From a virus, in the IMG/VR virus record IMGVR_UViG_3300049927_000079, positions 1 through 58,521 of that record: a DNA stretch of 58,521 nucleotides. The stretch is one strand, 5' to 3'. This document shows positions 32,486 to 57,026 of this stretch, one piece after another; within the stretch, counting starts at the first letter, position 1, and the number at the start of each line of letters is the position of its first letter. A program made the translations under genes and the position numbers. The notes under the pieces are model-generated. The model made no database searches. It had not been told where the DNA came from and worked only from the letters and a program-made list of their open reading frames with translations.

Positions 32486-32884
32486 CTATTCCTCCCGGTA
32501 AAAAGAATGGTGTCCAATTTTGGCCGTTGCGGTCATTTGTTGCGCCCATGCGGGGATCGGGATTGAATCCGCAAAGTAGTGCGTGGCCCCGTTCGTAAGA
32601 TCAGAGTCTCCGCCCTGAAAGATTGAGTCCGCAACATCATAGCAGTCCACAAAAGGGGCATCTGGCGAGACAGGAACTTTAGCCAACTGCGGATCATTGG
32701 AGGCAGTCATGGAGGAAAACTGCCAAGGTTGATAGACGATTTCTGCCCATGACTTGTTGTGCTTCAGAGCTCGATTCTGAATCACATGCAGAACTGCACG
32801 GATACCGTCGCGCCCCTCCCCGCGAGCCTCGCGCCATGCACAGAGCGCAGCGCACCACTTTTGGAATTCGTTCCAGTTCATCAT
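32486..32884 (-). CDS. Endolysin, SleB-type cell-wall hydrolase
   Basis: A 132-residue protein (start at ATG 32884, or 32881). It matches the cell-wall hydrolase SleB family: A-A-L-C-A-W-R-E-A-R-G-E-G-R-D-G-I-R-A-V-L-H-V-I-Q-N-R, then Q-P-W-Q-F-S-S-M, then A-T-H-Y-F-A-D and P-A-W-A. The glutamate in W-R-E-A-R-G-E is the expected catalytic acid. It has no signal peptide, so it needs a holin to reach the peptidoglycan. It is coupled to the coiled-coil membrane protein upstream (ATGA), forming the lysis cassette. Confidence 0.85.
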   Translation of the reverse strand: MMNWNEFQKWCAALCAWREARGEGRDGIRAVLHVIQNRALKHNKSWAEIVYQPWQFSSMTASNDPQLAKVPVSPDAPFVDCYDVADSIFQGGDSDLTNGATHYFADSIPIPAWAQQMTATAKIGHHSFYREE

Positions 32885-33279
32885 TTCCCCAAGTAGTGCA
32901 GCAACAGATTCAGTCCCACTGCTATAACACTGATCCCGGCTCCCATAGCCCACATGCGACCTTCCATGTTGCTCCTGTTAGTTTCGAGTAGCTTGAGTCG
33001 GGCATCCATTTCACTTCGCAGAGCATTATGCTGTTCATCATACATATCGCGCCGCATAAACTCGCCACGTTCATGAGCGATTTGCTCCCGAAACTGGTTC
33101 ATCTCATCCAGGCGTCGGTCTATTTCTCTGCGAGCTAATACTAGTGCTTCTTTGTCAACGATGTGAAACCGGTGGTGCGCGTCTTGCCACTGTTCGCGAA
33201 GCTCGCGCTCATGGACAGTAAGCCTCCAACACTCCTCAACATTGTGTCGCTCGGATTTACTTGTTTCTTTGTCATCCAT
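32881..33279 (-). CDS. Coiled-coil tail-anchored protein, holin/spanin candidate
   Basis: A 132-residue protein. Residues about 17-105 are a highly charged coiled coil (R-E-I-D-R-R-L-D-E-M-N-Q-F-R-E-Q-I-A-H-E-R-G), and residues about 110-129 are a single transmembrane helix (W-A-M-G-A-G-I-S-V-I-A-V-G-L-N-L-L-L). Such C-terminally anchored coiled coils resemble XhlA-type lysis proteins and holin partners. Its stop overlaps the endolysin start. An i-spanin would have the helix at the other end. Confidence 0.62.
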   Translation of the reverse strand: MDDKETSKSERHNVEECWRLTVHERELREQWQDAHHRFHIVDKEALVLARREIDRRLDEMNQFREQIAHERGEFMRRDMYDEQHNALRSEMDARLKLLETNRSNMEGRMWAMGAGISVIAVGLNLLLHYLGK

Positions 33280-33807: not shown

Positions 33808-36800
33808 TTACTGAACTCCCACGACAAGATGGCCACCTAAAACCAAAACTCCCCCGAGCGTAACTTTCACCGGACCCGGAGGAGGCGGAACCGGAATCGC
33901 TGTGCCCTGCAACGCAATCGTCTGCGGACTGTTTACCGTATTTGAGACCACCGAAATAGATCCGAGATGCACGTTGCTGATACAGCCTCCGGCGCTGTCA
34001 AACTGCCCACACAAGGTCGAAGGAGTAAAGGTAGCCTGCTCTGAGCAGAAGGCGCCAACTGCGAGCGTAGAGCCGCAGGCTCCGGTTACGGCAAAGTCCG
34101 CAGTCGTAGATGTCACCGCGAGCCCTGTGGCAGTCGCCGTGCCGTTGTTTGTGACAATGAATACCAAGGGATTGCTGGTTTTCCCTACCGTCTGGTTGCC
34201 GAAATCAATGCGCGAGATCCCGAGAACTATGTTTGGCGTCCCCGTGAAACCTGTGCAACTGAGGGTCGCGGTATCCGGACTGCTCGCAGCATTCGACGCG
34301 AATATCAGGGTCGCAGTCAGGAACCCTGTCGCCGTGGGTTGGCAGTTCACCGTAGCCGTGCAGGAATTGCCAGCCGTTACCGTCCCGCAGTTGTCGCTTT
34401 CAATGAACTGGGTTGGATTGGCGCCGCCAAAGGTTAGCGGAGTCGCGATCACCAGGTCCGCATTCCCGGTATTGGTCGCGGTGACAGTCAAGCCGGCCGA
34501 GGTTGTTCCCGTCTGAATGCTCGGCGGAGAGAAGGCCAGCGACGTTGGGGCCAGCGAGATCCGCGGCGTAGGCGCAGCCACTCCATTCACCGTCAATGTA
34601 AGGTTCTGCGGGCTGTCGGACGCATCATCCACCACATGAACGTTCGCCGTGCGTGCGCCAGTCCCGCCAGGTGTCACTGAGACATCCACGGGGCAGAAGG
34701 CACCAGGAGCGAGGGTCAACCCGCAGTGATTGACCAAGGTGTAATCCCCTGGGTTGGTTCCGGTCAGGGCGATGCTCGAAAGGTTCAGCGTTGCCGTGCC
34801 AGTGTTCTGGATCTGGCCACTGACCACTTTAGACAACACGCCTACCGTGACGTTCCCGAAATCAATCGAAGATGGAGTCAACGTAACCGCGGGCGCCGTC
34901 GCTACGCCTGTGCAACTCAGAGACACCGTGAGGGGAGAAATGCTTGTTCCGGTAAAGGGTTGCGTGAAGGTTCCAGACTGCGCGCCGGCAGCGATCGGAT
35001 TACAGCGAATGAAGTACTGACATTGCGCCTGGGGAGCAAGGTTTTGGTTGCAGGTTGGATTCCCGAAAATGAAGCTAAAATTTGGATCGTTGATGGTCGC
35101 TCCCCCGAGCGCCAAGGATGTATTCCCAGTGTTCTGCAGGGTCACCGCTTGGTTAGCGCTTACCTGCCCCACCGTGATGCTTCCGAAGGACAGGCTGGAC
35201 GGGGTAAGCGTGGCGCCGTCTTGTGTACCGAAGCCGGAGAGAGTTACGACATTTGGAGACGAAGCGGCGTTTGAAGCAATCGAAATATTTCCCGTAAGCG
35301 GACCAGCCGAGAGCGGCGCGAACTTGACGTTAATGGTGCAGGTAGATCCAACCGTGACCGTCCCGCAAGCGTTGGCCTGGGAGAAATTTCCGGTTGGAGT
35401 CACGCTCGAAACAACCAAGCTGGCCGTGCCGCAGTTGGTTACTACAACCGGCAGGCTGGCTGAAACCGAGTTTACCGGAGTGTTCGGGAAACTAAGGCTG
35501 GTCGCACTCAAGCAGACTGCCGGAGCGGTTGCTACTCCTGTCCCGGTAAGAGCCGCAGTCGATGGAGTCGTACTCGCGCTATTGACCAGCGTCAGAGTCG
35601 CCGCGCGCGCGCCAGTCGTGGTTGGCTTGAAGGCCGCGGGGATGATGCAATTCTGCCCACCCGGAAGCGGGTTGGCGCAACTGTTTGCCAAGAGAACGAA
35701 GTCTCCCGGATTGGCTCCGGCCAGTGAAAGCGTCCAGCGCATCGGGCCTGTGCCTGTATTCGACCAAGTGAAGTTGAACGGTGCGGTTTGTGTCCCAGAC
35801 ACTTGCGAGCCGAAATCATGGGATACAGGAGCAAGGCTGGCAATCGGAGCCGTGCCAGTGCCCGAGAGAGACGCCTGGTGCGGACTGCCCGTGGCGCTAT
35901 CTGCCATCGACAGCGCAGCAATCTTGAGGCCGATAGAAAGCGGGCTGAAGTACACCGGGATCGTGCAACTGGCGCCGGCAGCCAGCGTAGTGACTCCGGC
36001 CGGAGTGAAGGAGAAAGCCTTAACAAACTGCCAGCGCGTCCCATTCGTAGCCAAGCCACCAAACGCGGCATTGTTGGTGCCCCAGAGATTCATCATGGGG
36101 TTGGCAGGAGCAAACGGGATGTTCGTGCTGTGCGTCTGACTCAGCGTGCCATCAATCGAAAACGCTACCGAAGGCGCCGTCCACTTGAAGCCATAAACGT
36201 GGAACCCCAGTTCCGGGTTGGCCAGAGTAGCCGTGGTTGCAGTGTTCAGGGACGGAGTGCTCCAAGTTGTCCACTCGATCGTATTCGGTAGTCGCCCTTC
36301 AATCTCCGGCGAATCAATCTCCGTGTAGGGATTCGAGATGGAACTGTTCAGAATGAAGTCGGAAGAAACCTGTCCCGAGGGAACCGTGCCAGTCAAGTAA
36401 GGCGTGGTCGCCGTGGATGCAGAGCGCATCGACCAGCGATAACTTCCGAAACCGAAAGCTGTGGTCGATCGTACTTCCGCGCCCACCGAAATCGTAGGAG
36501 CCGCCCCGCTCTGGACTACCTTCAGTCCGAGCATCCCGTTCGACAAGTCCACATTCGAGGTCGAGAAGGTGCTTGTGTTCACGCCTCCGATATTTCCCGG
36601 AGCCGTCCCGGTATCTATCTGCCACTTGGAACTGAGGGCGCCCTGGTCGAAGTTGTCAGTGAATCCACTGGCTGCGGTCGCGCACTCGCCGGCAGTAAAG
36701 TCTCCGGGATTCGCTCCAATCAGCGACACTCCGGAAATTGTTACCGGCGAGGTTCCCGTGTTGGTCGCCGTCACGTTCGTAACTGGAGAGAAGTTACCTA

Positions 36801-39774
36801 CCAGAACATCGTTGAAGTTCACCGTGGACGGTGCGAGTTGAATGGTCCCAGGGACGGTCCCTGTACCTGTCAAGGTTGAGCCTACCGGCGCACCATTCGA
36901 GGCCACCGAAAGCGCAGAGGTCAAGAGGCCCGCTGCTGCTGGCTTGAAGAATGCATTGATGGTGCAGGACTGAGCCGGCGTTATCGTCCCGGTCGAAGGG
37001 CAGTTGTTCGACTGCGAATAGGCGGTTGGATTCGTGCCGCCAAGACTGATGGTGACTCCGGTCGAATTGATGCTTCCGCTCGCAGTGAGGGTGAAGGCTT
37101 GGCACAGGACCGATGTTCCTACCTGTTGATTCCCGCACGCCGCACTGGACGGACTAAGCGTCATGGCAGCCGCGCCGCCGACGCCGCTCATCGGAACTGT
37201 TTGTGGAGATCCGGGAGCGTTGTCAGTGAAACTCATATTGGCCGTGCGCGAGCCCGTAGCCGTTGGGCAGAACTTGGCGCTCTGCGTACAGGAAGATCCA
37301 GGTCCGAGTGAACCACCCCCCGCACCCGTCGCAGTGAAAGTGGAGAAGCCGTAGTCTGCTTGAGTATTCGCTCCCTGCAGGAACATACCCATTCCCGGAA
37401 AACCTGAAGCGAACGTTGTATCGGTAGCCGTGTTGACCTGGATGCCGTTTTTGAACACGGTGATAGTCGAGCCCGTGATTGACGCCTTGACTACATCTCC
37501 GTTGACTACCGCGCCTCCTACCGCCTTATTGGAGAGCATAGTGAAGCTGCCAAGCGGTCCATTCCAGCGAACAATTTGGGTGTAGGACTGACCCGGCCCA
37601 ACCGCAAAATTTATTTCGTAGCCCTTTATGCTGTGCGGAGCGATCGTAGTGCGAAGCCGTAGTTCCAGTTCCTCAAACGTCGATTGAACGTGTGAGACGG
37701 TGTGGACAGTTGCGGTAACCGTCTGGTCGTTATTCCATGATCCACCGACTACCGCGGTCGAGTCGTTCAGGGCGCCAGAACCAGTTTGCGTCCCGAAAGC
37801 AAGTCCGGGAGTTGTTCGGACGTTGGCCCAGTCGAGACCTGTCGTTCCACCATTGATCCAGTTCCCGCCTTCTGAAATCGGGTTCTCGGTAGCCGGGAAG
37901 TTGGTTGTGTAGGTGCGCGAAGCCAGCAGGCTAGGACAACTGCCAGTTCCGCCTACCGGAAAGTCCAAGGGGTTCGTGCCCGTGAAACCAAGGTTGGTAA
38001 TGGTCAAAGCCGTACTGCCCGTGTTGGTCAGCGTGGTTTGCTGGACTGCGCTGCAACTACCAGGTGCGATCGTACCAAAGTTGAGCACGGCAGGATTAAG
38101 ACTCACAGTGGAAGTACCGCCTGTCACCGTAAGAGCAACCTGGTGCGGCGAACCTACGGCATTGTCGGTCAAGGTCAGGAAAGCGCTACGCACTCCGCTT
38201 GCCGTGGGTTTGGCAGTTATGCTGAACGCGCAGCTAGCAGCAGCCGCAAGCGAGGCGGGACAGTTATTCGTCTGCGAGAAGTCTCCCAGGTTGGTTCCGG
38301 TGATTGCCTTGCCTGAAATAGTGAGTGCCGCATTCCCTGGATTAGACAGCGCGACTACGACCGGAGAGGACGACGTACTTACCGGGACCGTGCCGAAGTT
38401 GACCGATCCTGGACTGAAAGCCACGGCCGGAGCCAGTCCGCCTACGCATCCGCCCGCGAGACCTTCCATGCCAAGGGCCACGCACGGGTCTGCGATGTGG
38501 AAGTGTTGCAATACATTCAACCCGTTGACCAAACTAACGTTCGCCCACCATGCCGTGTTGTACTGTCTTGTACTGTGCGGAGCGGAAGGGTTAGGCCAAG
38601 TACCTACGCACGGTCCCCCAACACATGCTCCCCCTCCCGGCGCCCCTCCTCCTGTGCGGTCAGTGAAGGTGCAGGGCGCAATGCATTGTGCGTTCATAGC
38701 AGCCGAGAAATTGTTCGCTACGGTTTGGGCTCCTGGATAACCGTGCGTCTGCAGCCATGAGTAAGGCGTCTCGCTCTCAATGCTCGGCAGGGCTACTGCG
38801 TCTCCGTTCCCGGTTCCGCCAATGATGATGCCGTAGAGGGTCGCCGCACGGAGAATCGCGTACTGAATAATTCCAAGTTTAGCGATTCCAGGACAGGACG
38901 GTTGCACGGGATCGAAACAGTTGAGTTGCGGCGTAGTGTAATCGAGAAAGAACAAAGATCCGTTCGGAGGTCGGTTCACGTCAGTCGAGGCAGGGCTTGT
39001 TTTAGAAGTACAAAGTTGTCCCGGACTACCGCCGCCAGAACCGATAGGAAACACCGTGAAACCGGGGTAGCGCCCAGTAGGAACGCCGCTTCCGGAGCAC
39101 AGCGAGTAGCCGTACAGCGCATGATTGATTACTCCGGAAAGCAATTCCTGCAGGCGCATGATCGGGCCGAAGGGGGAAGTACCGCCCGTGATCGTTGAGC
39201 CAGTCTGGTAACCGGGTCCGGTATTCCACACATCCATGCCGCAATAACTGTTGCCGTTGTGCGTAAATGTTCCAGGTACAGCCGGGATCTGTCCTGCCCC
39301 GAAGGTATAGAACACCCAAAGTTTGCCAGTCACCTGATCGTAGAGGAGGAAATTGGAATCAGAATTTCCGCCTGTGAAGCCGTTGTATGGCAGGAGGGGC
39401 TGCATGTGGACGATTTGGCCGTTGAGCCCACTGGCATACGAGTTCCCGCTGCAACCTTGCACCGGCCACGTAGGATCACTGGCCTGTCCGAAGTAGAGCG
39501 GCCATGAACTGAAGTCGTCGCTCCCTGGCGTGTGGTACGGGCCTGTTTGAAAATTAGTAAAGTTGCCGGTGACGTTCTGGATCATTTGTGCCGACCCAGG
39601 CATCAGGTTGCCCAACGGCCCGCCCGCGCCGGCATTGGGCAGTTGATGGTTATAGAAGGCAGCCGGATAGGGTCGGTTACTGTTTGCCGGCTGGTTCAGG
39701 ATGTTGTAAGGCGGAGTTTGCGCGAGGGCGCCCGCAACCAGGAACAGGAGCGCGGAGATGAGTCTGCGAATCAA
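33808..39774 (-). CDS. Giant exported HYDIN-repeat protein with lectin-like and GH16-like domains
   Basis: A 1988-residue protein. The real start is TTG 39774, giving a Sec signal peptide I-R-R-L-I-S-A-L-L-F-L-V-A-G-A-L-A-Q; it has GAGG upstream and overlaps the previous stop (TTGA). Residues 20-445 are an unassigned exported domain. From about 446 come ten choice-of-anchor-D (HYDIN/ASH) Ig-like repeats with L-x-P-x-x-x-x-F-G-x-x-x-V-G openings. A LamG-like domain (about 618-813) and a GH16-like domain (about 1036-1258, catalytic-type E-I-D-S-P-E near 1149) are inserted in repeats 2 and 4. It could bind and cut beta-glucan or similar polymer at the cell surface. Confidence 0.75.
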   Translation of the reverse strand: MIRRLISALLFLVAGALAQTPPYNILNQPANSNRPYPAAFYNHQLPNAGAGGPLGNLMPGSAQMIQNVTGNFTNFQTGPYHTPGSDDFSSWPLYFGQASDPTWPVQGCSGNSYASGLNGQIVHMQPLLPYNGFTGGNSDSNFLLYDQVTGKLWVFYTFGAGQIPAVPGTFTHNGNSYCGMDVWNTGPGYQTGSTITGGTSPFGPIMRLQELLSGVINHALYGYSLCSGSGVPTGRYPGFTVFPIGSGGGSPGQLCTSKTSPASTDVNRPPNGSLFFLDYTTPQLNCFDPVQPSCPGIAKLGIIQYAILRAATLYGIIIGGTGNGDAVALPSIESETPYSWLQTHGYPGAQTVANNFSAAMNAQCIAPCTFTDRTGGGAPGGGACVGGPCVGTWPNPSAPHSTRQYNTAWWANVSLVNGLNVLQHFHIADPCVALGMEGLAGGCVGGLAPAVAFSPGSVNFGTVPVSTSSSPVVVALSNPGNAALTISGKAITGTNLGDFSQTNNCPASLAAAASCAFSITAKPTASGVRSAFLTLTDNAVGSPHQVALTVTGGTSTVSLNPAVLNFGTIAPGSCSAVQQTTLTNTGSTALTITNLGFTGTNPLDFPVGGTGSCPSLLASRTYTTNFPATENPISEGGNWINGGTTGLDWANVRTTPGLAFGTQTGSGALNDSTAVVGGSWNNDQTVTATVHTVSHVQSTFEELELRLRTTIAPHSIKGYEINFAVGPGQSYTQIVRWNGPLGSFTMLSNKAVGGAVVNGDVVKASITGSTITVFKNGIQVNTATDTTFASGFPGMGMFLQGANTQADYGFSTFTATGAGGGSLGPGSSCTQSAKFCPTATGSRTANMSFTDNAPGSPQTVPMSGVGGAAAMTLSPSSAACGNQQVGTSVLCQAFTLTASGSINSTGVTISLGGTNPTAYSQSNNCPSTGTITPAQSCTINAFFKPAAAGLLTSALSVASNGAPVGSTLTGTGTVPGTIQLAPSTVNFNDVLVGNFSPVTNVTATNTGTSPVTISGVSLIGANPGDFTAGECATAASGFTDNFDQGALSSKWQIDTGTAPGNIGGVNTSTFSTSNVDLSNGMLGLKVVQSGAAPTISVGAEVRSTTAFGFGSYRWSMRSASTATTPYLTGTVPSGQVSSDFILNSSISNPYTEIDSPEIEGRLPNTIEWTTWSTPSLNTATTATLANPELGFHVYGFKWTAPSVAFSIDGTLSQTHSTNIPFAPANPMMNLWGTNNAAFGGLATNGTRWQFVKAFSFTPAGVTTLAAGASCTIPVYFSPLSIGLKIAALSMADSATGSPHQASLSGTGTAPIASLAPVSHDFGSQVSGTQTAPFNFTWSNTGTGPMRWTLSLAGANPGDFVLLANSCANPLPGGQNCIIPAAFKPTTTGARAATLTLVNSASTTPSTAALTGTGVATAPAVCLSATSLSFPNTPVNSVSASLPVVVTNCGTASLVVSSVTPTGNFSQANACGTVTVGSTCTINVKFAPLSAGPLTGNISIASNAASSPNVVTLSGFGTQDGATLTPSSLSFGSITVGQVSANQAVTLQNTGNTSLALGGATINDPNFSFIFGNPTCNQNLAPQAQCQYFIRCNPIAAGAQSGTFTQPFTGTSISPLTVSLSCTGVATAPAVTLTPSSIDFGNVTVGVLSKVVSGQIQNTGTATLNLSSIALTGTNPGDYTLVNHCGLTLAPGAFCPVDVSVTPGGTGARTANVHVVDDASDSPQNLTLTVNGVAAPTPRISLAPTSLAFSPPSIQTGTTSAGLTVTATNTGNADLVIATPLTFGGANPTQFIESDNCGTVTAGNSCTATVNCQPTATGFLTATLIFASNAASSPDTATLSCTGFTGTPNIVLGISRIDFGNQTVGKTSNPLVFIVTNNGTATATGLAVTSTTADFAVTGACGSTLAVGAFCSEQATFTPSTLCGQFDSAGGCISNVHLGSISVVSNTVNSPQTIALQGTAIPVPPPPGPVKVTLGGVLVLGGHLVVGVQ

Positions 39775-40505
39775 TACAGATTCCTCGCATGACGCACTGC
39801 AGAAGAAACAAATGGCGCCACTCCGAAAGCAATCGTGGAGTATCCAGGGGCAGCGCTCCCGGTTTTGGTCGTACCTGCCGTATAGGTGCCGGGCGGTAAA
39901 TTGATCCGGTCTGCGATGTTGAGGCAAGCACCATGATTGTTGAATTCAATTGTGAACCCTGAAGCTGGCGTCTCCCCGCTGCACGTCACCACTCCGCTGT
40001 CACCGCTCATGCTGATAATGAGATCATTTGACCCGCTTGTGGTGACTTGGCTGGTAAATGGACTATTGCCCTGGTTCCCCGTATCTACACCAGTTAAGTC
40101 CTGGCCGTACTCACCTACCCAAAGGAATACTGGAGTGCTCCCGCCAGCAGATAAATTGAACGTGTCAGAACCAGAAAACGCTCCTGTGCTTGAGTAAAAC
40201 AGCACGCCTGCCCATGAAGCAAAAGAGATGGAATAAGACTGGCCAATGCCGACTCCGGTGTTACATCCACTCGTAATGCAGCCTGGGAGTGGTGCCTGTG
40301 AAAAAGAATTGCCGGGAGTATCGGTATAGCTCAGGGTATGCGAGTCGCCGCTCACGAAACCTACAGCAACTACTAAATGATGAGCGCTAACCGTGAGAGT
40401 GCAGGAAGTTGTTCCGCCGCTATTGGTATTTGTGCATTGCTGAACCGGAACCGCTGCAGACACGGGTAGCGCGAACAGGGCGAGAATGAATAAGAGTCGT
40501 CGCAT
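39771..40505 (-). CDS. Exported protein, paralogue of the 42232 product
   Basis: A 244-residue protein from ATG 40505 (TGATG overlap). It has a clear signal peptide (R-R-L-L-F-I-L-A-L-F-A-L-P-V-S-A-A) and a beta-rich Ser/Thr/Gly body with several cysteines: Q-C-T-N-T-N-S-G-G-T-T-S-C-T-L-T-V, V-V-A-V-G-F, S-G-S-D-T-F-N-L. The overall plan (C...C near the start, V-V-A-V/I, F-S-G, S-x-S-x-L-x-I) is shared with the gene at 42232, so the two look like diverged copies. Probably an extracellular adhesin-like protein. Confidence 0.62.
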   Translation of the reverse strand: MRRLLFILALFALPVSAAVPVQQCTNTNSGGTTSCTLTVSAHHLVVAVGFVSGDSHTLSYTDTPGNSFSQAPLPGCITSGCNTGVGIGQSYSISFASWAGVLFYSSTGAFSGSDTFNLSAGGSTPVFLWVGEYGQDLTGVDTGNQGNSPFTSQVTTSGSNDLIISMSGDSGVVTCSGETPASGFTIEFNNHGACLNIADRINLPPGTYTAGTTKTGSAAPGYSTIAFGVAPFVSSAVRHARNLY

Positions 40506-42238
40506 CAATTTACCGTGAAATTTACTTGAACCGAGAACCTCTTGGCTACTCCGCCCGCTGTCCCTGATACGGTCTCAATGTAATCCCCAACCGCGATCGC
40601 AGTGTTCTGCAAGGTTGCCGAGCAAGTCGTGAACGTGTCCAGGCCCGCCGTGGCTCCTGTCTTGGAACACGCTGGCGCGCCCGAGGCTGCCGTTGCAAGC
40701 GCACCTGAAACCAGGTTGGTGACGGTGAAGTTGGACGCGCAAGGACTGCCGGTGCAATGACGGATGGCAACAATCACGTTCGGCGTCCCTGCATCTGCGG
40801 TTACGTCAATCTCGTTAACCGTGGCTGCGTAGGCTACTTGGCACTGCTCTTTCTGTGGGCCTATGTCTGTATCCGTCAGGGCGGAACTGGCATTCTCCGC
40901 ACCAAAGACCAGCGCGCAAGTACGTCGCAGACTTGACCCAGACGGCCCTGCGGCAGTTTTCCATAAAGTTACGATGTGCGTGGCATCCGTAACGGTATCA
41001 ATCGTAAGAACTTGACCGGCCGTGCCAGGGACGCCTGGTATTGAGGTTCCGAAGCTGGTTGGAACGGAGGTCGGAGCGTACCAGTAAGCCGTGGTGAGTT
41101 GACTTAGAGTGGGGACTGCACTTTGGCCGAAACCAATGAAGCCCGCGCTTGAACCGGCAAGCGTGACGCTGATGCCGTTGACATTACCGCCGCCATCGGT
41201 CGTAAAGGACGGGTCGCAGGTGACCACGTTCCCCGTCGCAGCGTAGTACGCGATGGCACCCACCGTAGAGCAAGGGGAGACGGTTCCGGTTCCGCCCGAG
41301 GCTTGTGGCGCAACTACGTCAGGAAGGCCGATGCGGATAACCGCATTCGTTGCGGCGCCAGAGTTGACCGATTGCACGCGCGCTATGTTTTGTACCGCAA
41401 CCGGCTCGGTCGCTCCGGCATCGTGGCACTGAGATCCAGAACCAAGCACCACGTAGTCGTTTATCCCAGTTTGATTATCAAAGGTACAGGAGATGGGGCC
41501 TTGCACGGCGACCGAGACCGTACCCGTCGTTCCGGCGCCGGCATCCGCGACACCTAAGAGATTGTTGGCATCGGTCGGTTGTGCATTTCTGGCCTGCAGT
41601 GAAGAGTTGAGACTGACAAGAAGGAATTGCGTGGTGCCGGGAGAACTGGAATTTGCGTAATCAAACTCAAGCGGCGCTTGTACTAGATCCAAGCCGAGTG
41701 GCCATGCGGCCGGGACGATTCCAGTTGCGACACCTTCTGAATTTCCTACCGTGGTCGCAGTGATGAACTTAGCTACGCGGTTTACCGTTCCCGATCCACC
41801 CCCGCCTCCGCCGCCCGCGCCTGTACCTTCGCAGACGTCGGTTAACGTTCGGTTGTACGGCATCGGTACACTCCCGCTCGACATCGTGATGTCGTAGCAG
41901 GCGCCTTGCGCGACGAAGAAAGTAAGACTCCCGTCCACGTTCGCGACAAAAGGATTCACTGAAGGCGTAGGCGTAGGGTTGTTGTCTGAGAAAATATTCG
42001 CCTTGACCAGGGTGCCGGTGTTATAGACGGTCACTATACAACCGGGGAAGGACGCTTGAACTCCGGCGCCAGCGTTGACGTTCGTGGTCCCAATCTGCTG
42101 CGTAGCGGTCGAAGGTAGGCCCGAGGTCAAGGCTTGCTCCCCTCCGATTTGACAATCGCCGTTCACGCCGGCAAGGGTCTGCCCGAAGGCTGGAGCACAA
42201 CACAGAGCGAGAATGAGGACAAGTTTTCTCGTTACCAT
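40505..42238 (-). CDS. Exported fibre-like protein
   Basis: A 577-residue protein from ATG 42238, with signal peptide V-T-R-K-L-V-L-I-L-A-L-C-C-A-P-A-F-G-Q. The mature protein is Gly/Thr/Ala-rich with repeated beta-strand patterns, including a G-G-G-G-G-G-S-G-T-V-N-R-V-A-K-F linker (about 202) of the kind seen in tail fibres, and A-P-L-E-F-D-Y-A-N-S. The last 150 residues have C-T-G-S-P-C-A-S-N-F and similar pairs. It resembles a phage tail fibre except that it carries a Sec signal. It overlaps the upstream stop by seven bases. Confidence 0.6.
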   Translation of the reverse strand: MVTRKLVLILALCCAPAFGQTLAGVNGDCQIGGEQALTSGLPSTATQQIGTTNVNAGAGVQASFPGCIVTVYNTGTLVKANIFSDNNPTPTPSVNPFVANVDGSLTFFVAQGACYDITMSSGSVPMPYNRTLTDVCEGTGAGGGGGGGSGTVNRVAKFITATTVGNSEGVATGIVPAAWPLGLDLVQAPLEFDYANSSSPGTTQFLLVSLNSSLQARNAQPTDANNLLGVADAGAGTTGTVSVAVQGPISCTFDNQTGINDYVVLGSGSQCHDAGATEPVAVQNIARVQSVNSGAATNAVIRIGLPDVVAPQASGGTGTVSPCSTVGAIAYYAATGNVVTCDPSFTTDGGGNVNGISVTLAGSSAGFIGFGQSAVPTLSQLTTAYWYAPTSVPTSFGTSIPGVPGTAGQVLTIDTVTDATHIVTLWKTAAGPSGSSLRRTCALVFGAENASSALTDTDIGPQKEQCQVAYAATVNEIDVTADAGTPNVIVAIRHCTGSPCASNFTVTNLVSGALATAASGAPACSKTGATAGLDTFTTCSATLQNTAIAVGDYIETVSGTAGGVAKRFSVQVNFTVN

Positions 42239-42933
42239 ACTCCGCTTCCTTTTCGCGTGGGCACTTGTGGAGGGACGATTGGCTTGAAAGTTGCCATTAC
42301 TGCCTCCGGCAATGGTGATCCCGATTGTGTCCAAGAGGGATTCACGGCACCGATCGGCGTTTTGACCAGATAAGCCATGTAACAAGTCGTAGTGGTTCCT
42401 GAGTTAAGGATTCCAACGGGAGTAGAGAATCCGGAATCTATAGTCGGAACACTCGCAGTTTGCGAGCCGAATGCACTTACAAAAAGCTCGTTATTGAAAG
42501 ACGGCGTGAGGCTCCCTGGTTGAATCGGAGAACTACCGCTTGACCCGCTTTGACCTTCAAAGGCTGATGACGGCAATGTTCCAGAGAAGGCCATTGCCGC
42601 CATACCTGCGAATGAACTAGAGGTTGCCGTGGTAAACGTGTGCGAGGCTCCAACGGTTCCGGGAATACTGTAAAACATGCGAGTGTGCGTATTGGTGTGA
42701 ACCTGTTCTGTGAGCGCAGTCCAGGAATTACTTTTTGAATCTGTTGGAACAGCCGGCGTTTTTTGAAATTCCGAAATGGCTACGACCAACAGAGTCGCAC
42801 CTGTCGTATCCATGACTGCCGTGGTACAGCCATTTGTCCCTCCGCATGTTTGGGGCGTTCCCACCAGGGCAGGTACACCCCAAGCAAAACTAGAGAGTGC
42901 GAGCACGAATGCGAAAATGAGCGCCTGTCTCAT
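42232..42933 (-). CDS. Exported protein, paralogue of the 39771 product
   Basis: A 233-residue protein from ATG 42933 (ATGA overlap). Signal peptide R-Q-A-L-I-F-A-F-V-L-A-L-S-S-F-A-W-G, then P-Q-T-C-G-G-T-N-G-C-T-T-A-V, L-L-V-V-A-I-S-E-F, G-A-S-H-T-F-T-T-A-T, N-N-E-L-F-V-S-A-F-G. It shares domain order and several motifs with the product of 39771. Function unknown; presumably periplasmic or cell-surface. Confidence 0.62.
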   Translation of the reverse strand: MRQALIFAFVLALSSFAWGVPALVGTPQTCGGTNGCTTAVMDTTGATLLVVAISEFQKTPAVPTDSKSNSWTALTEQVHTNTHTRMFYSIPGTVGASHTFTTATSSSFAGMAAMAFSGTLPSSAFEGQSGSSGSSPIQPGSLTPSFNNELFVSAFGSQTASVPTIDSGFSTPVGILNSGTTTTCYMAYLVKTPIGAVNPSWTQSGSPLPEAVMATFKPIVPPQVPTRKGSGVW

Positions 42934-43802
42934 TGGGTTAGGCTTATAAACCAGCCGGTCTGCTTGCTTGTCCCATCTGCAATAAATGTGAATTTGATTA
43001 CGTCGCCGTTCGCGATCGTAGTAGTCGAACTTAGGGTTCCTGGCGCTCCGCCCGCCGCCGCGGTACAGGTCACCGGAGTCGGACTCAGCAGCGCTGTGCC
43101 GGCGCCGTTGGTGGCACTTAAACTACTGGTTCCGGCATTGTCAGTGAAGCACCCGAGGCGGGTAATCGTCCACGTCACTCCGGAATTGTTGTAGCAGTTG
43201 GTCTGAAGATAGGTGCCCGCTGCCATCGCGTTCAAGCCATCCCCGAGACCGGGATAGCAGCGCAAGATGCTGTACTGTGCCGCCAACTGGGTAGCTGTGA
43301 CCGTGTTGGCAGTCATGTCCGCGCCTACGACCGCACCATAGGTAGGGTCGCCGGCAGCAGCACCGTGCAGCACTGTAGTTGAGGTCCCCAGGCTTGCCAA
43401 GACGGACGGGCACACGCCCGCGCCGCCACCTAGCACAATCGCGTGTTGAGTCAAGGTGCCGGAAGAGGCCCACGTCGCCGCCCCGGTGAAGCACACAATT
43501 CCGCCAGATGTTCCCGCCACAGTGAGCGCGGGGGTAGTCGTCGGATTAGCTACAGAAATCAGTCCGCCCGTGAACGAAACACTGCTAACCGTTCCCCCGC
43601 CACTGCCAGCCACCTTAGTCCATGTCCCGCTTACGCACGTGTAGAGGTCTCCTGTGGTGAGAAGAACTTGTAGATGCTGGCCCTGAGAGCACGTCCCGGA
43701 GGGTGCCGAGGTTACGTAATCCACAAACCCCGGACCCACCACTTGCGCGGGCAGGACGCGCGGCAGAAGAAGCAAAAGAATAAGCAGGGCCGACCACCGC
43801 AT
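42930..43802 (-). CDS. Exported fibre-like protein with shared N-terminal module
   Basis: A 290-residue protein from ATG 43802. After a signal peptide (R-W-S-A-L-L-I-L-L-L-L-L-P-R-V-L-P-A-Q) comes V-V-G-P-G-F-V-D-Y-V-T-S-A-P-S-G-T-C, nearly identical to the same region of the 43850 product. The remainder is Gly/Thr/Ser-rich with G-G-G-T-V-S-S-V-S and a C-terminal beta-domain ending F-I-A-D-G-T-S-K-Q-T-G-W. The shared module after the signal peptide may be an anchoring or assembly domain. Confidence 0.62.
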   Translation of the reverse strand: MRWSALLILLLLLPRVLPAQVVGPGFVDYVTSAPSGTCSQGQHLQVLLTTGDLYTCVSGTWTKVAGSGGGTVSSVSFTGGLISVANPTTTPALTVAGTSGGIVCFTGAATWASSGTLTQHAIVLGGGAGVCPSVLASLGTSTTVLHGAAAGDPTYGAVVGADMTANTVTATQLAAQYSILRCYPGLGDGLNAMAAGTYLQTNCYNNSGVTWTITRLGCFTDNAGTSSLSATNGAGTALLSPTPVTCTAAAGGAPGTLSSTTTIANGDVIKFTFIADGTSKQTGWFISLTQ

Positions 43803-43849
43803 TAGTTTAGAGCCTCCTACGATAAATTGCTGCAAGGTCATGTCATTGC

Positions 43850-45484
43850 CTACGGAGAGGTTGCAGCTTCTACCACAAATCGTTGCAGCGTCATGCTGTT
43901 TCCGGCAGTGCTAGCTGAGCAGAAAAGAATTGGCTGAACCACCAGCGTGCCATTCGTGACAAGATTTACCGGCTGGACAACGAATCCTGAAAGCGGTGTT
44001 TTGAAGGGTGTAAAGGCGGTTGTACTCGTGCCTTGCGCCAGGTCCAGAAAAGTATAAACGGCGGCGCTGCCAGATGCAGCCGCTGATCCTTGCATCTCAA
44101 ACGTTACTTCCATCGGAATATTGGTCATGCTTATCGAAGGAGCGGCTGCGGCTGCGGTATATACGTTTGCTCCACCCACACTCAACTGGAAACCGAAGCT
44201 CGGAGGCGAGCTGGAACTGGTAAGAGAGAATCCGAGCGTAATTTTCAACACCTTCTTTGTCGCCAGGTAATTCGCCGGGATAGTGTAGGTAGTTGCGAAA
44301 TTAGCCGTAGTATTATTCGGGCATGACACTGTGTCCGTGTTTGCTACTGAGGACGTTACGATGCCCCACAGACCCGCCGTGATAGCAGGAAATGTCTGAG
44401 TGGTCGAGTCGGTACCCGCAAGCGTTAGAGAGTTATTGATCGTCGCGGTTTTACCATCCGCCACCGTCAGGGTCGAGCTTGTGGCTGGCGCGGTAATCGC
44501 CATCTTGTTGATAGAGCTAGCCGTCGCCACGCCCAAAGTAGGAGTAGTGAAGGATGGCGATACCAGCGGAGCCAAGGAAGCCAGCGCCGTACCGGAGTCT
44601 TGGATAGCTTGGCTGCCCGCTCCAGTAATTACATTGCCCGATGTGTTGGAACTGGCTTGTGTCACCAGGCTGGCTGGGGCGATAGAAAACTTCGCGTAGG
44701 TGAGAGCGCTCCCCGCAGGACCGATTGAAGTCACCTGGGAGGTCAGCAGCCAAGAAGTGGTGGTGTTCGCCGTGCCCGATTGCACCGGGACTGTGCCGGT
44801 GTTGTTTACATCCGATGGCGTATCATAATCGATTGCTCTGGTAAAGACAGGGCTAACGCCCAGAGCGCCTACAATGGTGGCAAAGTAAACTCCATTCTGC
44901 GTTCCATCGGCCTGGTTCTTGAGCAGGACGCGTTGGCCGATGGTGTTGATAGCAATTCCGTCTAAGGTGAAAGATCCCGTAGCCGTCACGGTGAAAAAGT
45001 CTCCGATGCCCGCGCCGACTGCAGTGTAGGCGCCGACCACATTGGCGGTCGAGGCGGCAAGAACCGCTACAGCAGGATTGACTCCTGCGATTGCATTCGC
45101 CACAGCCAGGTCGGTGTAGGCGGTAGTAGAGAGTAGGGTTGAATTATTGTTCTGACTCTGAGTAGCTGCGGTTGCCGAACCAGGGAAAGCGAACGTGCTC
45201 GAAATCGAGAGTACTGGCGTCGTTGTGCCCGTAGCCACATTGATCTGATTGGCCGTACCTGTAACCGAAGTAACCGTACCGCCGCCGCCTGCACCAACCT
45301 GCGCCCACGTCCCAGACTGGCAGGTGTAGATAAATCCGCTGCCGAGAACGTTCTGCTGGTGAGCGCCTTGCGTGCAGGTTCCAGATGGGGCGGAAGTAAC
45401 ATAATCCACAAAACCAGCACCTACTACTTGCGCGGTGGCAAGACTTGTCCAAAATAAGACGATGAATATGAGTTTGCGAATCAT
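43850..45484 (-). CDS. Exported tail-fibre-like protein
   Basis: A 544-residue protein from ATG 45484. Signal peptide I-R-K-L-I-F-I-V-L-F-W-T-S-L-A-T-A-Q, then V-V-G-A-G-F-V-D-Y-V-T-S-A-P-S-G-T-C as in the 42930 product. Residues about 170-275 match a module of phage tail fibres: F-T-L-D-G-I-A-I-N-T-I-G-Q-R-V-L-L-K-N-Q, G-T-Q-N-G-V-Y, then F-T-R-A-I-D-Y-D-T-P. The C-terminal 150 residues form a beta-domain. A tail-fibre module fused to a cleavable export signal is unusual. Confidence 0.65.
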   Translation of the reverse strand: MIRKLIFIVLFWTSLATAQVVGAGFVDYVTSAPSGTCTQGAHQQNVLGSGFIYTCQSGTWAQVGAGGGGTVTSVTGTANQINVATGTTTPVLSISSTFAFPGSATAATQSQNNNSTLLSTTAYTDLAVANAIAGVNPAVAVLAASTANVVGAYTAVGAGIGDFFTVTATGSFTLDGIAINTIGQRVLLKNQADGTQNGVYFATIVGALGVSPVFTRAIDYDTPSDVNNTGTVPVQSGTANTTTSWLLTSQVTSIGPAGSALTYAKFSIAPASLVTQASSNTSGNVITGAGSQAIQDSGTALASLAPLVSPSFTTPTLGVATASSINKMAITAPATSSTLTVADGKTATINNSLTLAGTDSTTQTFPAITAGLWGIVTSSVANTDTVSCPNNTTANFATTYTIPANYLATKKVLKITLGFSLTSSSSPPSFGFQLSVGGANVYTAAAAAPSISMTNIPMEVTFEMQGSAAASGSAAVYTFLDLAQGTSTTAFTPFKTPLSGFVVQPVNLVTNGTLVVQPILFCSASTAGNSMTLQRFVVEAATSP

Positions 45485-48032: not shown

Positions 48033-49364
48033 CTACGCGCTGAATCCGAGAAGCACCTGGTTGTGTCGCGGCATCACGTTATACAGATTGGTGCCGAGAC
48101 GCATAAACAGTGCATCCATCGAAACGTTGTTAGGCATCGGTGCCCTGCGGAGCCCGAAGTTCCAACCCTTCTTGTCAGTCGGCCTCAACTTGAAGCTTCC
48201 GGATTCCAGGAAGTAGAGTACTTCGCCCACGGTGCAAGTCGCGTTCGAGGGGAAGTTGCTCCCGGTCGGAGAGGTAGCCACATTCGAGGTCACACCACCT
48301 ACCGTCTGGGTGTACTGCGGAGTCACCAGCGTTCCAGTCTGCGTGCTCGAACCTGCGCCGTCCTGCAAGTTGTTATTCCCAGACTTGCCGGCTGCCGGAG
48401 CGAGTGACAGGAAATCTCCCGCGAGTGCAGAGGGGGCGAGCGGGTCGGGATAGATCTCCATGCCATTGAACGTGACACCGTAGTAGCCGACATCGAATTT
48501 CTTCATATCGGTATTGCGGCGCTGTGCGTCGAGAGCGTTGACCACGGCAGTAAAGCCAAACACGTTGGTGATGCCCATATCTGGCTTGCCGCCCGTGACT
48601 ACAGCCTGCGCCCATCCGCGGGTAAGGGCATTGACGTCAATCTGTCCAGTCCCATTGGTCGCGAGTGCAGCAGCAGTCGCGCCGGCAGTGGTTCCGCCAA
48701 GGTACAGCGGAGTCGAATTGAGTGCTGGCCCGATAACCCCATTGCGAGTATCTCCCCCGTAAGTGGAGTAAATGTTCCCGAACGGCGACGGGTCGATACC
48801 GTTGTTCAGTCCTTCGTCGAGCCCGTTCGTATTCAGGATGCGGTTGTCTGAGATCCCCGTACCGGCCGGTTGACCGTGACGGAAACTGTCCATCTCGATC
48901 ATGGTATTCAGAGTCATGGTCATGTTTTCCATGAGAATCTGATACTGGTTCGCGATCATGGCAGGACCGGAGTTTACGACTCCGCCCGTACCGCTACCGT
49001 CATCCAGTTCCCAGTCGTCTAGGGGAACCCAGGTCGCGTAGGCTTTCGGCAGGAACTTCATGCCGGTATTGGTCTGCTGGCGAGTGACCGTGACGGTCGA
49101 ACCCGGAGCAAGAGCGGCGCCCTGCACGCGCCCGTAGATGAAGCCCTCGAACATTCCCGAGCCACCCAGGAACGGATCGAGTACGCCGGCCGCGCGCAAT
49201 TTAGCTTGGAACGGTGTATCGACAAAAAGGTTATCGAACACAACGTTCTTTCTTACTGATTCTAAATTAGTTGCGTCGATTTCCGAGTAGAGAGGGTCCG
49301 TGAGGAACGCGAAATTTAACTGGAACAGCCTCGCCAGCGTCAACAGCAGGAACTTGATAAGCAT
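48033..49364 (-). CDS. Major capsid protein
   Basis: A 443-residue protein with AGGAGAGG before ATG 49364. Reading starts with a hydrophobic segment (L-I-K-F-L-L-L-T-L-A-R-L-F) and goes on to F-D-N-L-F-V-D-T-P-F-Q-A-K-L-R-A-A-G-V-L-D-P-F, K-A-Y-A-T-W-V-P-L-D-D-W-E-L, M-E-N-M-T-M-T-L-N-T-M-I-E-M-D and the end R-L-G-T-N-L-Y-N-V-M-P-R-H-N-Q-V-L-L-G-F. Size, position after a scaffold-like gene and the mixed fold fit an HK97-like coat protein. The hydrophobic N-terminus is odd for a coat protein and may be removed or be the scaffold-contact helix. Confidence 0.75.
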   Translation of the reverse strand: MLIKFLLLTLARLFQLNFAFLTDPLYSEIDATNLESVRKNVVFDNLFVDTPFQAKLRAAGVLDPFLGGSGMFEGFIYGRVQGAALAPGSTVTVTRQQTNTGMKFLPKAYATWVPLDDWELDDGSGTGGVVNSGPAMIANQYQILMENMTMTLNTMIEMDSFRHGQPAGTGISDNRILNTNGLDEGLNNGIDPSPFGNIYSTYGGDTRNGVIGPALNSTPLYLGGTTAGATAAALATNGTGQIDVNALTRGWAQAVVTGGKPDMGITNVFGFTAVVNALDAQRRNTDMKKFDVGYYGVTFNGMEIYPDPLAPSALAGDFLSLAPAAGKSGNNNLQDGAGSSTQTGTLVTPQYTQTVGGVTSNVATSPTGSNFPSNATCTVGEVLYFLESGSFKLRPTDKKGWNFGLRRAPMPNNVSMDALFMRLGTNLYNVMPRHNQVLLGFSA

Positions 49365-54148: not shown

Positions 54149-56287
54149 TCAGTCCCCCACTGACATGAGGGGAATCGTAGCATACGACCTGTCGATTTCG
54201 GGAAGCCTTTGTGTGGGAGGGCTGTATCGTTTGGTTGATCGTGCGGCAAGTTCGTCTAAGTGGTGGCGAGTCCAGTAGGAGTGGGCGGCTGCAAGTACGC
54301 GGTCATCGTGCTTTCCCGCCTGGTGCTCGACTCTCGACTTACCCTTTTTCAGTTTGCGTTCAAGCGAAGCCAACTCTTCAATCAGGAATTTCGATTGCGG
54401 CTGATACCAGCCATCTTTCACGGCATCGACAAAGCGGGTGATAATCTGGCCGCGCGACCAGGGCCGCATGTAGATACCTTCCTTGTGGCCGCGGTTTTCC
54501 TTGATAACTTTCGAGTCGTAAGGGATGTCGGTGTGGTGATAGTTGAATCCCATCAGTTTCAGTTGCAACTGGCAATCGTCTCCCGGCCGTTCGCGTTGCT
54601 CGATGGCAAACTTGCAACCGCGAGTGTCGATGGTATTGATTCCGTACCAGGCTGCAAGGCAAGCTGCGAATCCTACTGCCTGGGGTGCATTGATTCGGCG
54701 GGAGGCGAGTTCAAACACTTGCACGTCGCAGTTTTCGCCTCTCATGCTCCTGGTTCCCGAAAGTACGGTCGAGTCCTCATCTTCCTGGTTCAGTCCGTCC
54801 GCGGTGTCGATGCCGATGGAGTAATCTTCCGGCTCCCCGTAGTGTCCCGGCCGGCGATTGGGCTCCTCGAAGATGAGCACCTTGTCGAAAGAGTGGCGCT
54901 CGTCCTCTTCATTGAACGGCTTGAGTGGAATCATAATCCACTCAAAATGCTGCTTCTTGTGCGAGTTCCACGAAACCCGGATACGTTCCTTGTTGTAGTC
55001 AATCTCGTTTTCGTCGGGCTCGAAGCCGTCATCAATCGAGTCTCCGGTAACCGCGTAAGCCGTGTAGTTCCGAGTTCTCCCGTCGCGGGCGCCGTCGATT
55101 ACGATGGTGTCAAACACCAGATCGTTCGCACCCTGCAGCGCTTCGTAGTCGTCGGCCGGCATCTGCGAGAACCATACTTTCTGGGTGTGGGTGTCTACGG
55201 ATTCAAGGTAGTTAAACTCCCAGAACCACTGCTGCTCGACCGGCATTCGCCAGTCTTTCCCAACAACTCGCGCCAGGTAGTCAGTGTCCCGTATGAATAA
55301 TTCGCAACGCAGGACGTGCTTCCGGGTGGCTTCGAGAGGCTTGAATCCAGCCGGGACGGGATGTTTTCTAATCCAGTCGGGTTCAGGATATAGGTCAGGC
55401 GCCATAGGCCAGTTGATAAAGAATGGGAAGAATCGAGACTTCCCCAAGGGCCATCCCGCTTTACTGGAACGCCACTTATCAGCCTGCCATCCTGTGTTTC
55501 CATTTCCCGTTCCCTCCAACACGAAGTAGAGTTTGCGCGATGAGTGCGTGGCACGGAGCAGTCCTTCCTCGATCGTTTTCTTGGGATTCGGGATGTCTCC
55601 GATTTCAGAGACGTGGACACAAGTCGGAGTCCAGCCTTGCGCGATGCCCGTAGCCTGGTGACCAGACTGCACAGAGAGAATCGAGCCGTTGATAAACCCG
55701 ATCATCTTTATACGGTCGGTGGTGCGCGCCGGAATCAGCCACCAAGGGAGACGGGCGATGCAGGTTTCGATGATGCGCGTAATGAGTTCGGATTTCTCGT
55801 CGTTGACCGAGCCCATGACCGCCTGGGTGTGCGGCAGAAACAACATCCGGTGCAGGAACTTCAGCGCCGTCTTAGTGGTGACTCCCAGTTGCCGCGCTTT
55901 CAGGATAAGAAGTTCGATTGAGACCTGTTGCTCGTCAAAATCCGCGAGTATGTTGTCATAGACTTCTTGCGACTTGCGGTTGCGGAACTTGAAAATGTCG
56001 CCTTTTTCATCGCACACCCAGGCATAGCGCGACTCAAAGTAAGCCGAGTCGAACATGCAGAGCACTTGCTCATTCTCGACCCATCGGCGGATCTCTTTCG
56101 CGCGATTGGCGGAGATTTCTTTTTTCAGGTCGTAGTAGTTGTTCCGGCCCTTGGAGTCATGGGCAATGATGGAATTGACGTAGGCCTTAAACTCTTCAAT
56201 CTGCTCTACCGTGTGGTAGTACGGCATCCACTTTTCGCGGGCGGCGAAGAGTTCGAGGTTCTGGACTATGATCTTTTCACTATACAA
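54149..56287 (-). CDS. terL: Terminase large subunit
   Basis: A 712-residue protein. The start at TTG 56287 overlaps the upstream stop by eight bases and lacks a good ribosome site, so an internal start is possible. The ATPase part has L-I-L-K-A-R-Q-L-G-V-T-T (Walker A-like, about 127-138) and V-S-E-I-G-D-I (Walker B-like); the nuclease part has Y-S-I-G-I-D-T-A-D-G and G-K-H-D-D-R-V-L-A-A-A. It packages DNA into the head through the portal. It is longer than typical terminases, with about 100 extra N-terminal residues. Confidence 0.85.
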   Translation of the reverse strand: MYSEKIIVQNLELFAAREKWMPYYHTVEQIEEFKAYVNSIIAHDSKGRNNYYDLKKEISANRAKEIRRWVENEQVLCMFDSAYFESRYAWVCDEKGDIFKFRNRKSQEVYDNILADFDEQQVSIELLILKARQLGVTTKTALKFLHRMLFLPHTQAVMGSVNDEKSELITRIIETCIARLPWWLIPARTTDRIKMIGFINGSILSVQSGHQATGIAQGWTPTCVHVSEIGDIPNPKKTIEEGLLRATHSSRKLYFVLEGTGNGNTGWQADKWRSSKAGWPLGKSRFFPFFINWPMAPDLYPEPDWIRKHPVPAGFKPLEATRKHVLRCELFIRDTDYLARVVGKDWRMPVEQQWFWEFNYLESVDTHTQKVWFSQMPADDYEALQGANDLVFDTIVIDGARDGRTRNYTAYAVTGDSIDDGFEPDENEIDYNKERIRVSWNSHKKQHFEWIMIPLKPFNEEDERHSFDKVLIFEEPNRRPGHYGEPEDYSIGIDTADGLNQEDEDSTVLSGTRSMRGENCDVQVFELASRRINAPQAVGFAACLAAWYGINTIDTRGCKFAIEQRERPGDDCQLQLKLMGFNYHHTDIPYDSKVIKENRGHKEGIYMRPWSRGQIITRFVDAVKDGWYQPQSKFLIEELASLERKLKKGKSRVEHQAGKHDDRVLAAAHSYWTRHHLDELAARSTKRYSPPTQRLPEIDRSYATIPLMSVGD

Positions 56288-57026
56288 AGCAGTAGCCTGA
56301 GTCGCATCCAGTGAGCGTTGGTTGCCTGTCAGTGAAATCTACTTCGCTTAACGGCTTTCCTATTGAGTGAAGGAAAACAAAGTTATCGCGTTTGCGGAGT
56401 CCTGCGTCAAACGCGACTGCTTTTTTGAAATCCCCGGCATCCATCTCTCGCCACTCTTCGTCGTTCATGTTAGGACACATCCAACAGGCGGAGCGCGGCG
56501 GCTTGGGCCATCCCATTTCGTCCATGACTAGGCGGATGCAATCCCCCTTTCCCATTGGAACATCAAAAAGAAGGGGGTACCATTCCTGCATCCACTGCTT
56601 ACTGGGCGCTCGTACACGCTTCATTTCATCCCGCGAGATTCCTACCCAGACTCTAGCTTGTTCCACTCCGAGACTGCGGAGCCAGCGAGCCGTGACGCGA
56701 CGTTTCCATTCCACCGAGCAGTACGTTGGCAACTTTCCCACTTCCCCATTTTGCGTGGTAAAGGCAGGGATTAGCAGAGTGTCGCCTTCCTCTCCGCCGT
56801 AAAGATCAACGGTGGCAAATCGAGATTTAGGGACGCGATGGATTTCCAGTCCGACTTTGGACAAATTGGGTCGGATTACTTCATCGAGATAGCGCCAAGT
56901 TGAAGCCTTCTCTCGTTCCGTGTCCACGATTACCGCGAGGTCTGGTTTGGGAAGTTTCCCTTGGATGATGAGGGCGGCAATAGCAGCAGATTGAGTTCCA
57001 CCGCCACAACTCCACACTTCCGTCAC
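56280..57026 (-). CDS. PAPS-reductase/ATP-PPase-family protein
   Basis: A 248-residue protein from GTG 57026 (GTGA overlap). The PP-loop is W-S-C-G-G-G-T-Q-S-A-A (5-15), a variant of S-G-G-x-x-S. Further signatures: V-D-T-E-R-E-K-A-S-T-W, C-S-V-E-W-K, and paired cysteines A-C-W-M-C-P-N and the end C-D-S-G-Y-C. Phage members of this adenine-nucleotide-alpha-hydrolase group occur widely; relatives act in sulfur transfer, including DNA phosphorothioation. It lies between the two terminase-type genes, which suggests a DNA-related role, but substrate is unknown. Confidence 0.75.
   Translation of the reverse strand: MTEVWSCGGGTQSAAIAALIIQGKLPKPDLAVIVDTEREKASTWRYLDEVIRPNLSKVGLEIHRVPKSRFATVDLYGGEEGDTLLIPAFTTQNGEVGKLPTYCSVEWKRRVTARWLRSLGVEQARVWVGISRDEMKRVRAPSKQWMQEWYPLLFDVPMGKGDCIRLVMDEMGWPKPPRSACWMCPNMNDEEWREMDAGDFKKAVAFDAGLRKRDNFVFLHSIGKPLSEVDFTDRQPTLTGCDSGYCFV

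Follow-up and report, generated by a model that had tools for sequence, protein, structure and literature searches.

A probably exported phage protein carrying a GH16-type domain and a probable ConA-like domain within interrupted choice-of-anchor-D repeats

Introduction

Can carbohydrate-directed domains be carried inside the Ig-like repeats of a phage protein, and if so, what would such a protein do? The question is raised by an open reading frame of 1988 codons (33808..39774, minus strand) in the IMG/VR virus record IMGVR_UViG_3300049927_000079, the whole 58,521 bases of which were analysed and are referred to as the window. By its profile matches the encoded protein contains about ten choice-of-anchor-D/HYDIN repeats, and it is probably exported. 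The original prediction held that repeats 2 and 4 are split at the same loop, by a LamG-like lectin domain and a GH16-like domain respectively, and that repeated insertion had built a modular display architecture. Acidobacterial proteins were proposed there for the search for further cases, but the window is a virus record. By genome context it holds a terminase large subunit (54149..56287), a major capsid protein (48033..49364) and an endolysin (32486..32953), all on the minus strand, and it also holds an HNH endonuclease; the 1988-residue protein is therefore viral and not chromosomal. Judged by the terminase, the nearest phages in culture are those of the acidobacterium Tunturiibacter named Tunturi_1 and Tunturi_2 (TerL 28.5% identity over 97%; PMC11924767), and they also match a 577-residue protein encoded near the repeat protein over 100 residues. 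From these two matches, the host of the window phage is likely to belong to the Acidobacteriota.

Results

Organisation of the protein

The reading frame starts with a TTG codon at 39774, which is preceded by GAGGAA, overlaps the stop of the upstream gene in a TTGA and is counted as residue 1. A Sec signal peptide is predicted for residues 1-18 (39721..39774; (M)IRRLISALLFLVAGALA|Q) from the sequence and a heuristic scan. It is followed by an N-terminal domain (residues 19-440; 38455..39720), defined by family search and comparison with a sister phage (L034), for which neither a Pfam or PHROG match nor a significant match in a PDB sequence search was found. The repeats are recognised by NF012200 (choice-of-anchor D; 452.7 bits over the whole protein in 12 stretches, cut-off 45) and PF22544 (HYDIN/ASH-like; 154.6 bits), and an uninterrupted repeat (model residues 329-437) fits both the ASH/PapD-like domain of CEP192 (6fvi; Z 12.6, rmsd 2.1 over 104) and HYDIN (2e6j; Z 10.6, rmsd 2.3 over 102). 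The only PHROG family returned for the protein was phrog_18474, 'hydrolase'. Repeat 1 (38152..38436), repeat 3 (36895..37203; confidently modelled and PapD/ASH-like) and repeats 5-10 (34015..35874; profile matches) are uninterrupted in the window.

Interruption of repeats 2 and 4

The N-terminal half of repeat 2 (37930..38142) ends in GTGSCPS, with Cys613 at 37936-37938, and the C-terminal half (37195..37308) begins with LGPGSSC, with Cys829 at 37288-37290; between them lies insert 1 (residues 616-822; 37309..37929), a candidate ConA-like/LamG-like beta domain. Repeat 4 is arranged in the same way, its N-terminal half (36682..36876) ending in DFTAGEC (Cys1031 at 36682-36684) and its C-terminal half (35887..35985) beginning with LAAGASC (Cys1270 at 35965-35967), with insert 2, the GH16 domain, between them (residues 1032-1263; 35986..36681). 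The halves were placed by half-HMMs and alignment. The interruption amounts to 207 aa in repeat 2 and to 232 aa in repeat 4, and both times it separates the two conserved Cys residues of the choice-of-anchor-D/HYDIN repeat. The motifs quoted in the original prediction were all found (DFPVGGTGSCPS at 604-615, LGPGSSCT at 823-830, DFTAGEC at 1025-1031 and LAAGASCT at 1264-1271), as were the contiguous halves of an uninterrupted repeat (NNCPASLAAAASC at 503-515, in repeat 1).

For the half-HMM test, a repeat model made from 120 repeats, mostly cellular with phage ones included, was cut into an N-terminal and a C-terminal half, and each half was searched separately. The matches flanking insert 1 scored 48.6 and 43.6 bits and those flanking insert 2 scored 47.0 and 31.1 bits, and the gap between halves by this measure was 211 aa in repeat 2 and 231 aa in repeat 4; in each of the remaining eight repeats it was 2-5 aa. 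In a second test, a profile alignment trained on cellular repeats only and permitting one free insertion, the best position for both inserts was at columns 60-72, in the Cys67-Cys77 loop, with adjacent columns nearly tied. The Cys residues at model columns 67 and 77 that bracket this loop are present in 86-88% of repeats, and a MAFFT alignment of the window protein, its sister-phage counterpart and eight cellular three-repeat stretches also placed both inserts between invariant Cys columns. AlphaFold2 prediction on residues 540-1305 gave the scaffold a pLDDT of about 85-95 right up to both junctions and the inserts mostly values below 50, so that structure prediction supports the scaffold halves on both sides of each insert and leaves the inserts themselves at low confidence. 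Half-HMMs, profile alignment, MAFFT, the AlphaFold2 scaffold and an empty site in the sister phage (see below) agree, and the interruption of repeats 2 and 4 by inserted domains is confirmed.

Cellular choice-of-anchor-D proteins (NF012200, many of them from Acidobacteriota) share the repeat sequence and the Cys pair with the phage protein, but their loop is short and their extra stretches lie between whole repeats. In 350 half-pairs from 76 proteins at 71 loci, the loop between halves was at most 21 aa, bar two weak pairs; these, with apparent loops of 358 and 81 aa, depend on half matches of only 6 bits and were dismissed. In the acidobacterial proteins L139, L140 and L143, stretches of about 450-520 aa were seen between whole repeats. 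When 396 acidobacterial genomes were searched with query A1, matches occurred in 84 genomes, nearly all of the matches listed falling on the HYDIN part, and four of those that extended into the GH16 columns were inspected and had no GH16 there. A GH16 inside such a repeat was absent among the matches listed from these 396 genomes.

Nature of the two inserts

The expectation of a GH16-like domain in repeat 4 is well founded. PF00722 matches insert 2 with 51.4 bits (gathering score 22; 1e-13), NF047856 also matches it, and the PDB licheninases 1mac, 1byh and 1u0a match over most of the domain (1e-11). The catalytic motif ExDxxE is intact as EIDSPE (residues 1152-1157; 36304..36321) in the window and identically in the sister phage, differing from the licheninase EIDIEF. 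By homology, insert 2 can thus be solidly assigned as a GH16 glucanase-type domain. Among eleven relatives it was found only in the two sister phages; the nine other TerL relatives, some of which are fragments, show neither choice-of-anchor-D repeats nor GH16, and no GenBank phage with this GH16 or with insert 1 was found.

For insert 1, no LamG profile matched in Pfam and a PDB sequence search gave nothing significant, while a weak acidobacterial relative matches PF06439, a ConA-like family, at 0.0014, under its cut-off. The AlphaFold model of this insert is of low confidence (pLDDT 44.8), and its best structural matches are a GH32 sandwich, SPRY, a PL7 lyase and galectin with Z of at most 7.4, on a scale where models that lack a clear match typically reach 7 to 8 at best. 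Against viral lectin and tail-fibre models the same low-confidence model gave E values of 1e-5 to 1e-3, with phage tail-fibre and minor tail proteins among the matches. The LamG-like lectin reading is therefore retained in part: a tendency towards a ConA-like jelly roll is seen in the model, and this is the probable fold of insert 1, with support at the level of the superfamily and not of the LamG family.

Relatives of insert 1 found by alignment come from one contig only, recovered twice. The best is a free-standing, signal-bearing protein of 218 aa on the unrelated phage contig L135 (28% over 181 aa), which stands between fibre-like and beta-helix-like genes downstream of Dit and matches a PHROG 'virion structural protein' family at 2.8e-5.

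Comparison with the sister phage

The sister phage G001 (IMGVR_UViG_3300045110_000134), with a terminase 88% identical to that of the window, encodes an ortholog of 2173 aa. Its repeat 2 is unbroken (GTGTC-NQPGSVPPGG-SC) and represents a natural empty site for insert 1, which fits gain of this insert in the window lineage as well as its loss in G001. Repeat 4 carries the same GH16 at the same point, with about 63-70% identity in this region. Repeat 5 holds an additional stretch of about 396 aa, inserted at about column 98 and thus in a different loop, which matches a beta-helix family of Pfam at 2.8e-6 and gave nothing significant in a PDB sequence search. The two orthologs also bear unrelated caps at the N-terminus, an orphan domain in the window (38455-39720) and, by eye, a beta-helix-looking one in G001 (L034:11093-12322), for which no Pfam or PHROG match was found. 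No close relatives of the whole protein, its N-terminal domain or insert 1 were found in viral contigs beyond the sister phage.

These differences indicate that domains come and go inside the repeats of one protein, and not always in the same loop. They support the proposed modular display by repeated domain insertion, and since the lectin-like insert is missing from G001 and another insert sits elsewhere, the protein appears, from this comparison of sequences, to be a chassis for exchangeable surface-targeting domains. A single shared loop does not hold throughout: inserts 1 and 2 are both in the Cys loop, but the third insert, in the sister phage, occupies another, so that one-loop use is not a rule. 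The 'same loop' rests on two inserts, and two of two would be expected by chance in an estimated one in seven cases if any loop would do.

A cassette of signal-bearing genes

The gene of the repeat protein is the last of an operon-like cassette of six, joined by overlaps of 4-7 nt or one 8-nt gap and located between tail/connector genes and lysis genes. The other five, all on the minus strand, encode proteins of 245 aa (39771..40508), 577 aa (40505..42238; fibre-like and homologous to a Tunturi_1/2 protein), 233 aa (42232..42933), 303 aa (42930..43841; fibre-like) and 544 aa (43850..45484; weakly matching a PHROG family labelled 'head decoration'). Signal peptides were scored by our own strict heuristic scan, which flags five of the six genes; the sixth, that of 303 aa, has a signal-like N-terminus by eye (MRWSALLILLLLLPRVLPAQ), and its G001 ortholog is flagged. 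The predicted cleavage sites are signal-peptidase-like (ALA|Q, AFG|Q, ASA|Q, AFA|Q), the next residue being mostly Q or A. The scan also flags two small ORFs of the window that lie outside the cassette.

Signal-bearing genes also follow the tail/connector genes in G003, G004, G005, G006 and G009, while G008 is a fragment ending before this region. In Tunturi_1/2 (L138/L137), gp12, gp13, gp14, gp16 and gp17 have signal-like N-termini, and the signal-bearing proteins are annotated as tail fibre, tail spike, pectin lyase and virion structural protein; the terminase, portal, capsid, gp11, gp30, gp31 and gp36 of Tunturi_1 are not signal-like. The products of these cassettes (window, G003-G006, G009, L137/L138) are fibre-like and Cys-rich, and the repeat protein has 49 Cys as against 0-9 in the tail/structural proteins checked in Tunturi_3 and Tunturi_4. 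In these two unrelated phages of the same host genus, signal-like N-termini were found in none of the tail/structural proteins checked; by this comparison the signal-bearing fibre cassette seems to go with the phage lineage and not with the host.

Discussion

The architecture can be compared with the 'evolved Dit' and 'evolved Tal' proteins of siphophages that infect Gram-positive bacteria, in which inserted carbohydrate-binding modules (CBMs), in the case of evolved Dits, extend the host range to exopolysaccharide producers (PMC7291167, PMC10688798). In both systems carbohydrate-active domains sit in loops of a structural beta-domain, the inserts vary between sister phages, and insert-free 'classical' versions exist, as here in G001, which is without insert 1. 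They differ in that the Gram-positive scaffold is a galectin-type tail ring with binding modules as inserts, whereas here it is a tandem HYDIN/ASH-like rod, probably exported, with an enzyme-type GH16 and a Cys-bracketed loop. The protein was rejected as a true evolved Dit, its scaffold being made of HYDIN-like repeats and not homologous to a distal tail protein; by analogy it may work like one. In Erwinia phage S6, gp095 combines choice-of-anchor D with a GH5 cellulase, and cellulose is the first receptor of the phage (PMC9544554). That protein and its phiEaP8 homolog (NC_049510), the latter encoded close to appendage and lysis genes, likewise join a glycoside hydrolase to choice-of-anchor-D repeats, but the GH5 of gp095 is appended at the C-terminus, and the homolog lacks a signal peptide, a Cys pair in the repeats and an insert. 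The cassette of Tunturi_1/2 (PMC11924767; PP887698, PP885685) resembles that of the window in genome position, signal-like N-termini, Cys-rich fibre or spike proteins and one partly homologous protein, and a whole-protein search of these records with the HYDIN-repeat protein gave no match. No description of signal-bearing tail fibres or of loop insertions in HYDIN repeats was found in the titles and listed abstracts obtained by searching open-access literature, where absence is no proof.

Overall, the reading we favour, with a probability of about 0.68, is that of a phage adhesion/depolymerase fibre, a Cys-rich and probably Sec-exported rod that bears interchangeable glycan-active domains. The Sec signal would take the protein out of the infected cell, and the rod would be formed by the about ten Ig-like repeats, most of which contain a Cys pair, likely disulfide-bonded. 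In repeats 2 and 4, the domain inserted in the Cys-bracketed loop would protrude sideways on a stem that the presumed disulfide holds in place, leaving the rod unbroken. The GH16 insert may cut, and the ConA-like insert probably binds, beta-glucan or a similar exopolysaccharide at the host surface, and inserts and N-terminal cap would be exchangeable between sister phages. The most likely role is in adsorption or matrix penetration, as for other tail-spike depolymerases.

Other explanations have to be weighed against such a fibre. A plain bead-on-string order, with the interruption an artefact of weak half-repeats, is highly improbable: cellular choice-of-anchor-D proteins do put long non-repeat stretches between whole repeats, but here the matches to the two halves reach 31-49 bits, the halves are directly joined at the empty site of the sister phage, and the AlphaFold2 model is confident on both sides of the inserts. 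A metabolic role is the common reading of glycoside hydrolases of soil viruses in the literature (including PMC11924767), and the GH16 would then be an auxiliary gene helping the infected host to feed on plant or fungal beta-glucan. We consider this quite unlikely: the GH16 is enclosed in a repeat of a protein whose cassette adjoins tail genes, no other carbohydrate-use gene was noticed, and among eleven relatives the domain was found in the two sister phages only; glycoside hydrolases of soil viruses should not be taken as metabolic genes by default.

The export signal raises a different difficulty. Virion proteins normally assemble in the cytoplasm, and a cleaved signal peptide is therefore hard to square with a tail fibre. 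The protein might instead be a secreted, free depolymerase outside the virion, which would act before or at lysis, thinning the exopolysaccharide of the host so as to release progeny or prevent re-adsorption. This possibility, suggested by the signal-like N-termini across the cassette and by the richness in Cys (49 residues, compared with 0-9 in the checked Tunturi_3/4 proteins), deserves consideration but seems doubtful to us, as the genes lie within the tail/adsorption module among fibre-like neighbours and the corresponding Tunturi_1/2 cassette carries an annotated tail spike and tail fibre. The hydrophobic N-termini could also be membrane or assembly anchors of virion fibres and not cleaved export signals, which would square them with cytoplasmic assembly; this is unlikely, as they end in canonical signal-peptidase-like sites with Q or A as the usual next residue, and the repeat Cys pairs suit an oxidising compartment.

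It is tempting to speculate, and we do so tentatively, that a podovirus-like lineage of soil phages (the window, G001, G003-G006, G009 and Tunturi_1/2) makes its host-recognition fibres via Sec as oxidised, disulfide-bonded periplasmic proteins, which are mounted on virions only at or after lysis, with the HYDIN-repeat protein as the exchangeable carrier and the Cys-bracketed loop as the insertion port. The similar signal-bearing cassette beside Dit/tail genes in the unrelated L135 suggests that such a Sec-fibre strategy may be wider. The cassette of signal-bearing fibre genes poses a testable question, namely by what route exported proteins come to serve as virion adhesins or to assist them, for which Tunturi_1/2 provide culturable phages.

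Loop insertion of carbohydrate domains was known before from galectin-type tail proteins of Gram-positive phages. New here are a different scaffold, phages probably of Acidobacteriota, an enzyme-type cargo, and an empty site that fixes the boundaries; an Ig fold left intact behind a likely disulfide clamp at each insert suggests a display chassis.

Some minor observations may be added. In L135 (3897-10053) the Dit gene is followed by a series of genes mostly with signal-like N-termini; a beta-helix-like protein and the free-standing relative of insert 1 are encoded among them. A phosphoadenosine phosphosulfate reductase gene adjoins the terminase gene of the window (56280-57026), and this function is also reported for Tunturi 5 and for acidobacterial vOTUs (PMC11924767). 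Finally, the C-terminal tails of the window protein (33811-33880; PPPPGPVKVTLGGVLVLGGHLVVGVQ) and of Tunturi gp14 (L137/L138; PPAPISVQMQGVKVQGARIQ) look alike, and the shared tail is possibly an attachment or trimerisation motif.
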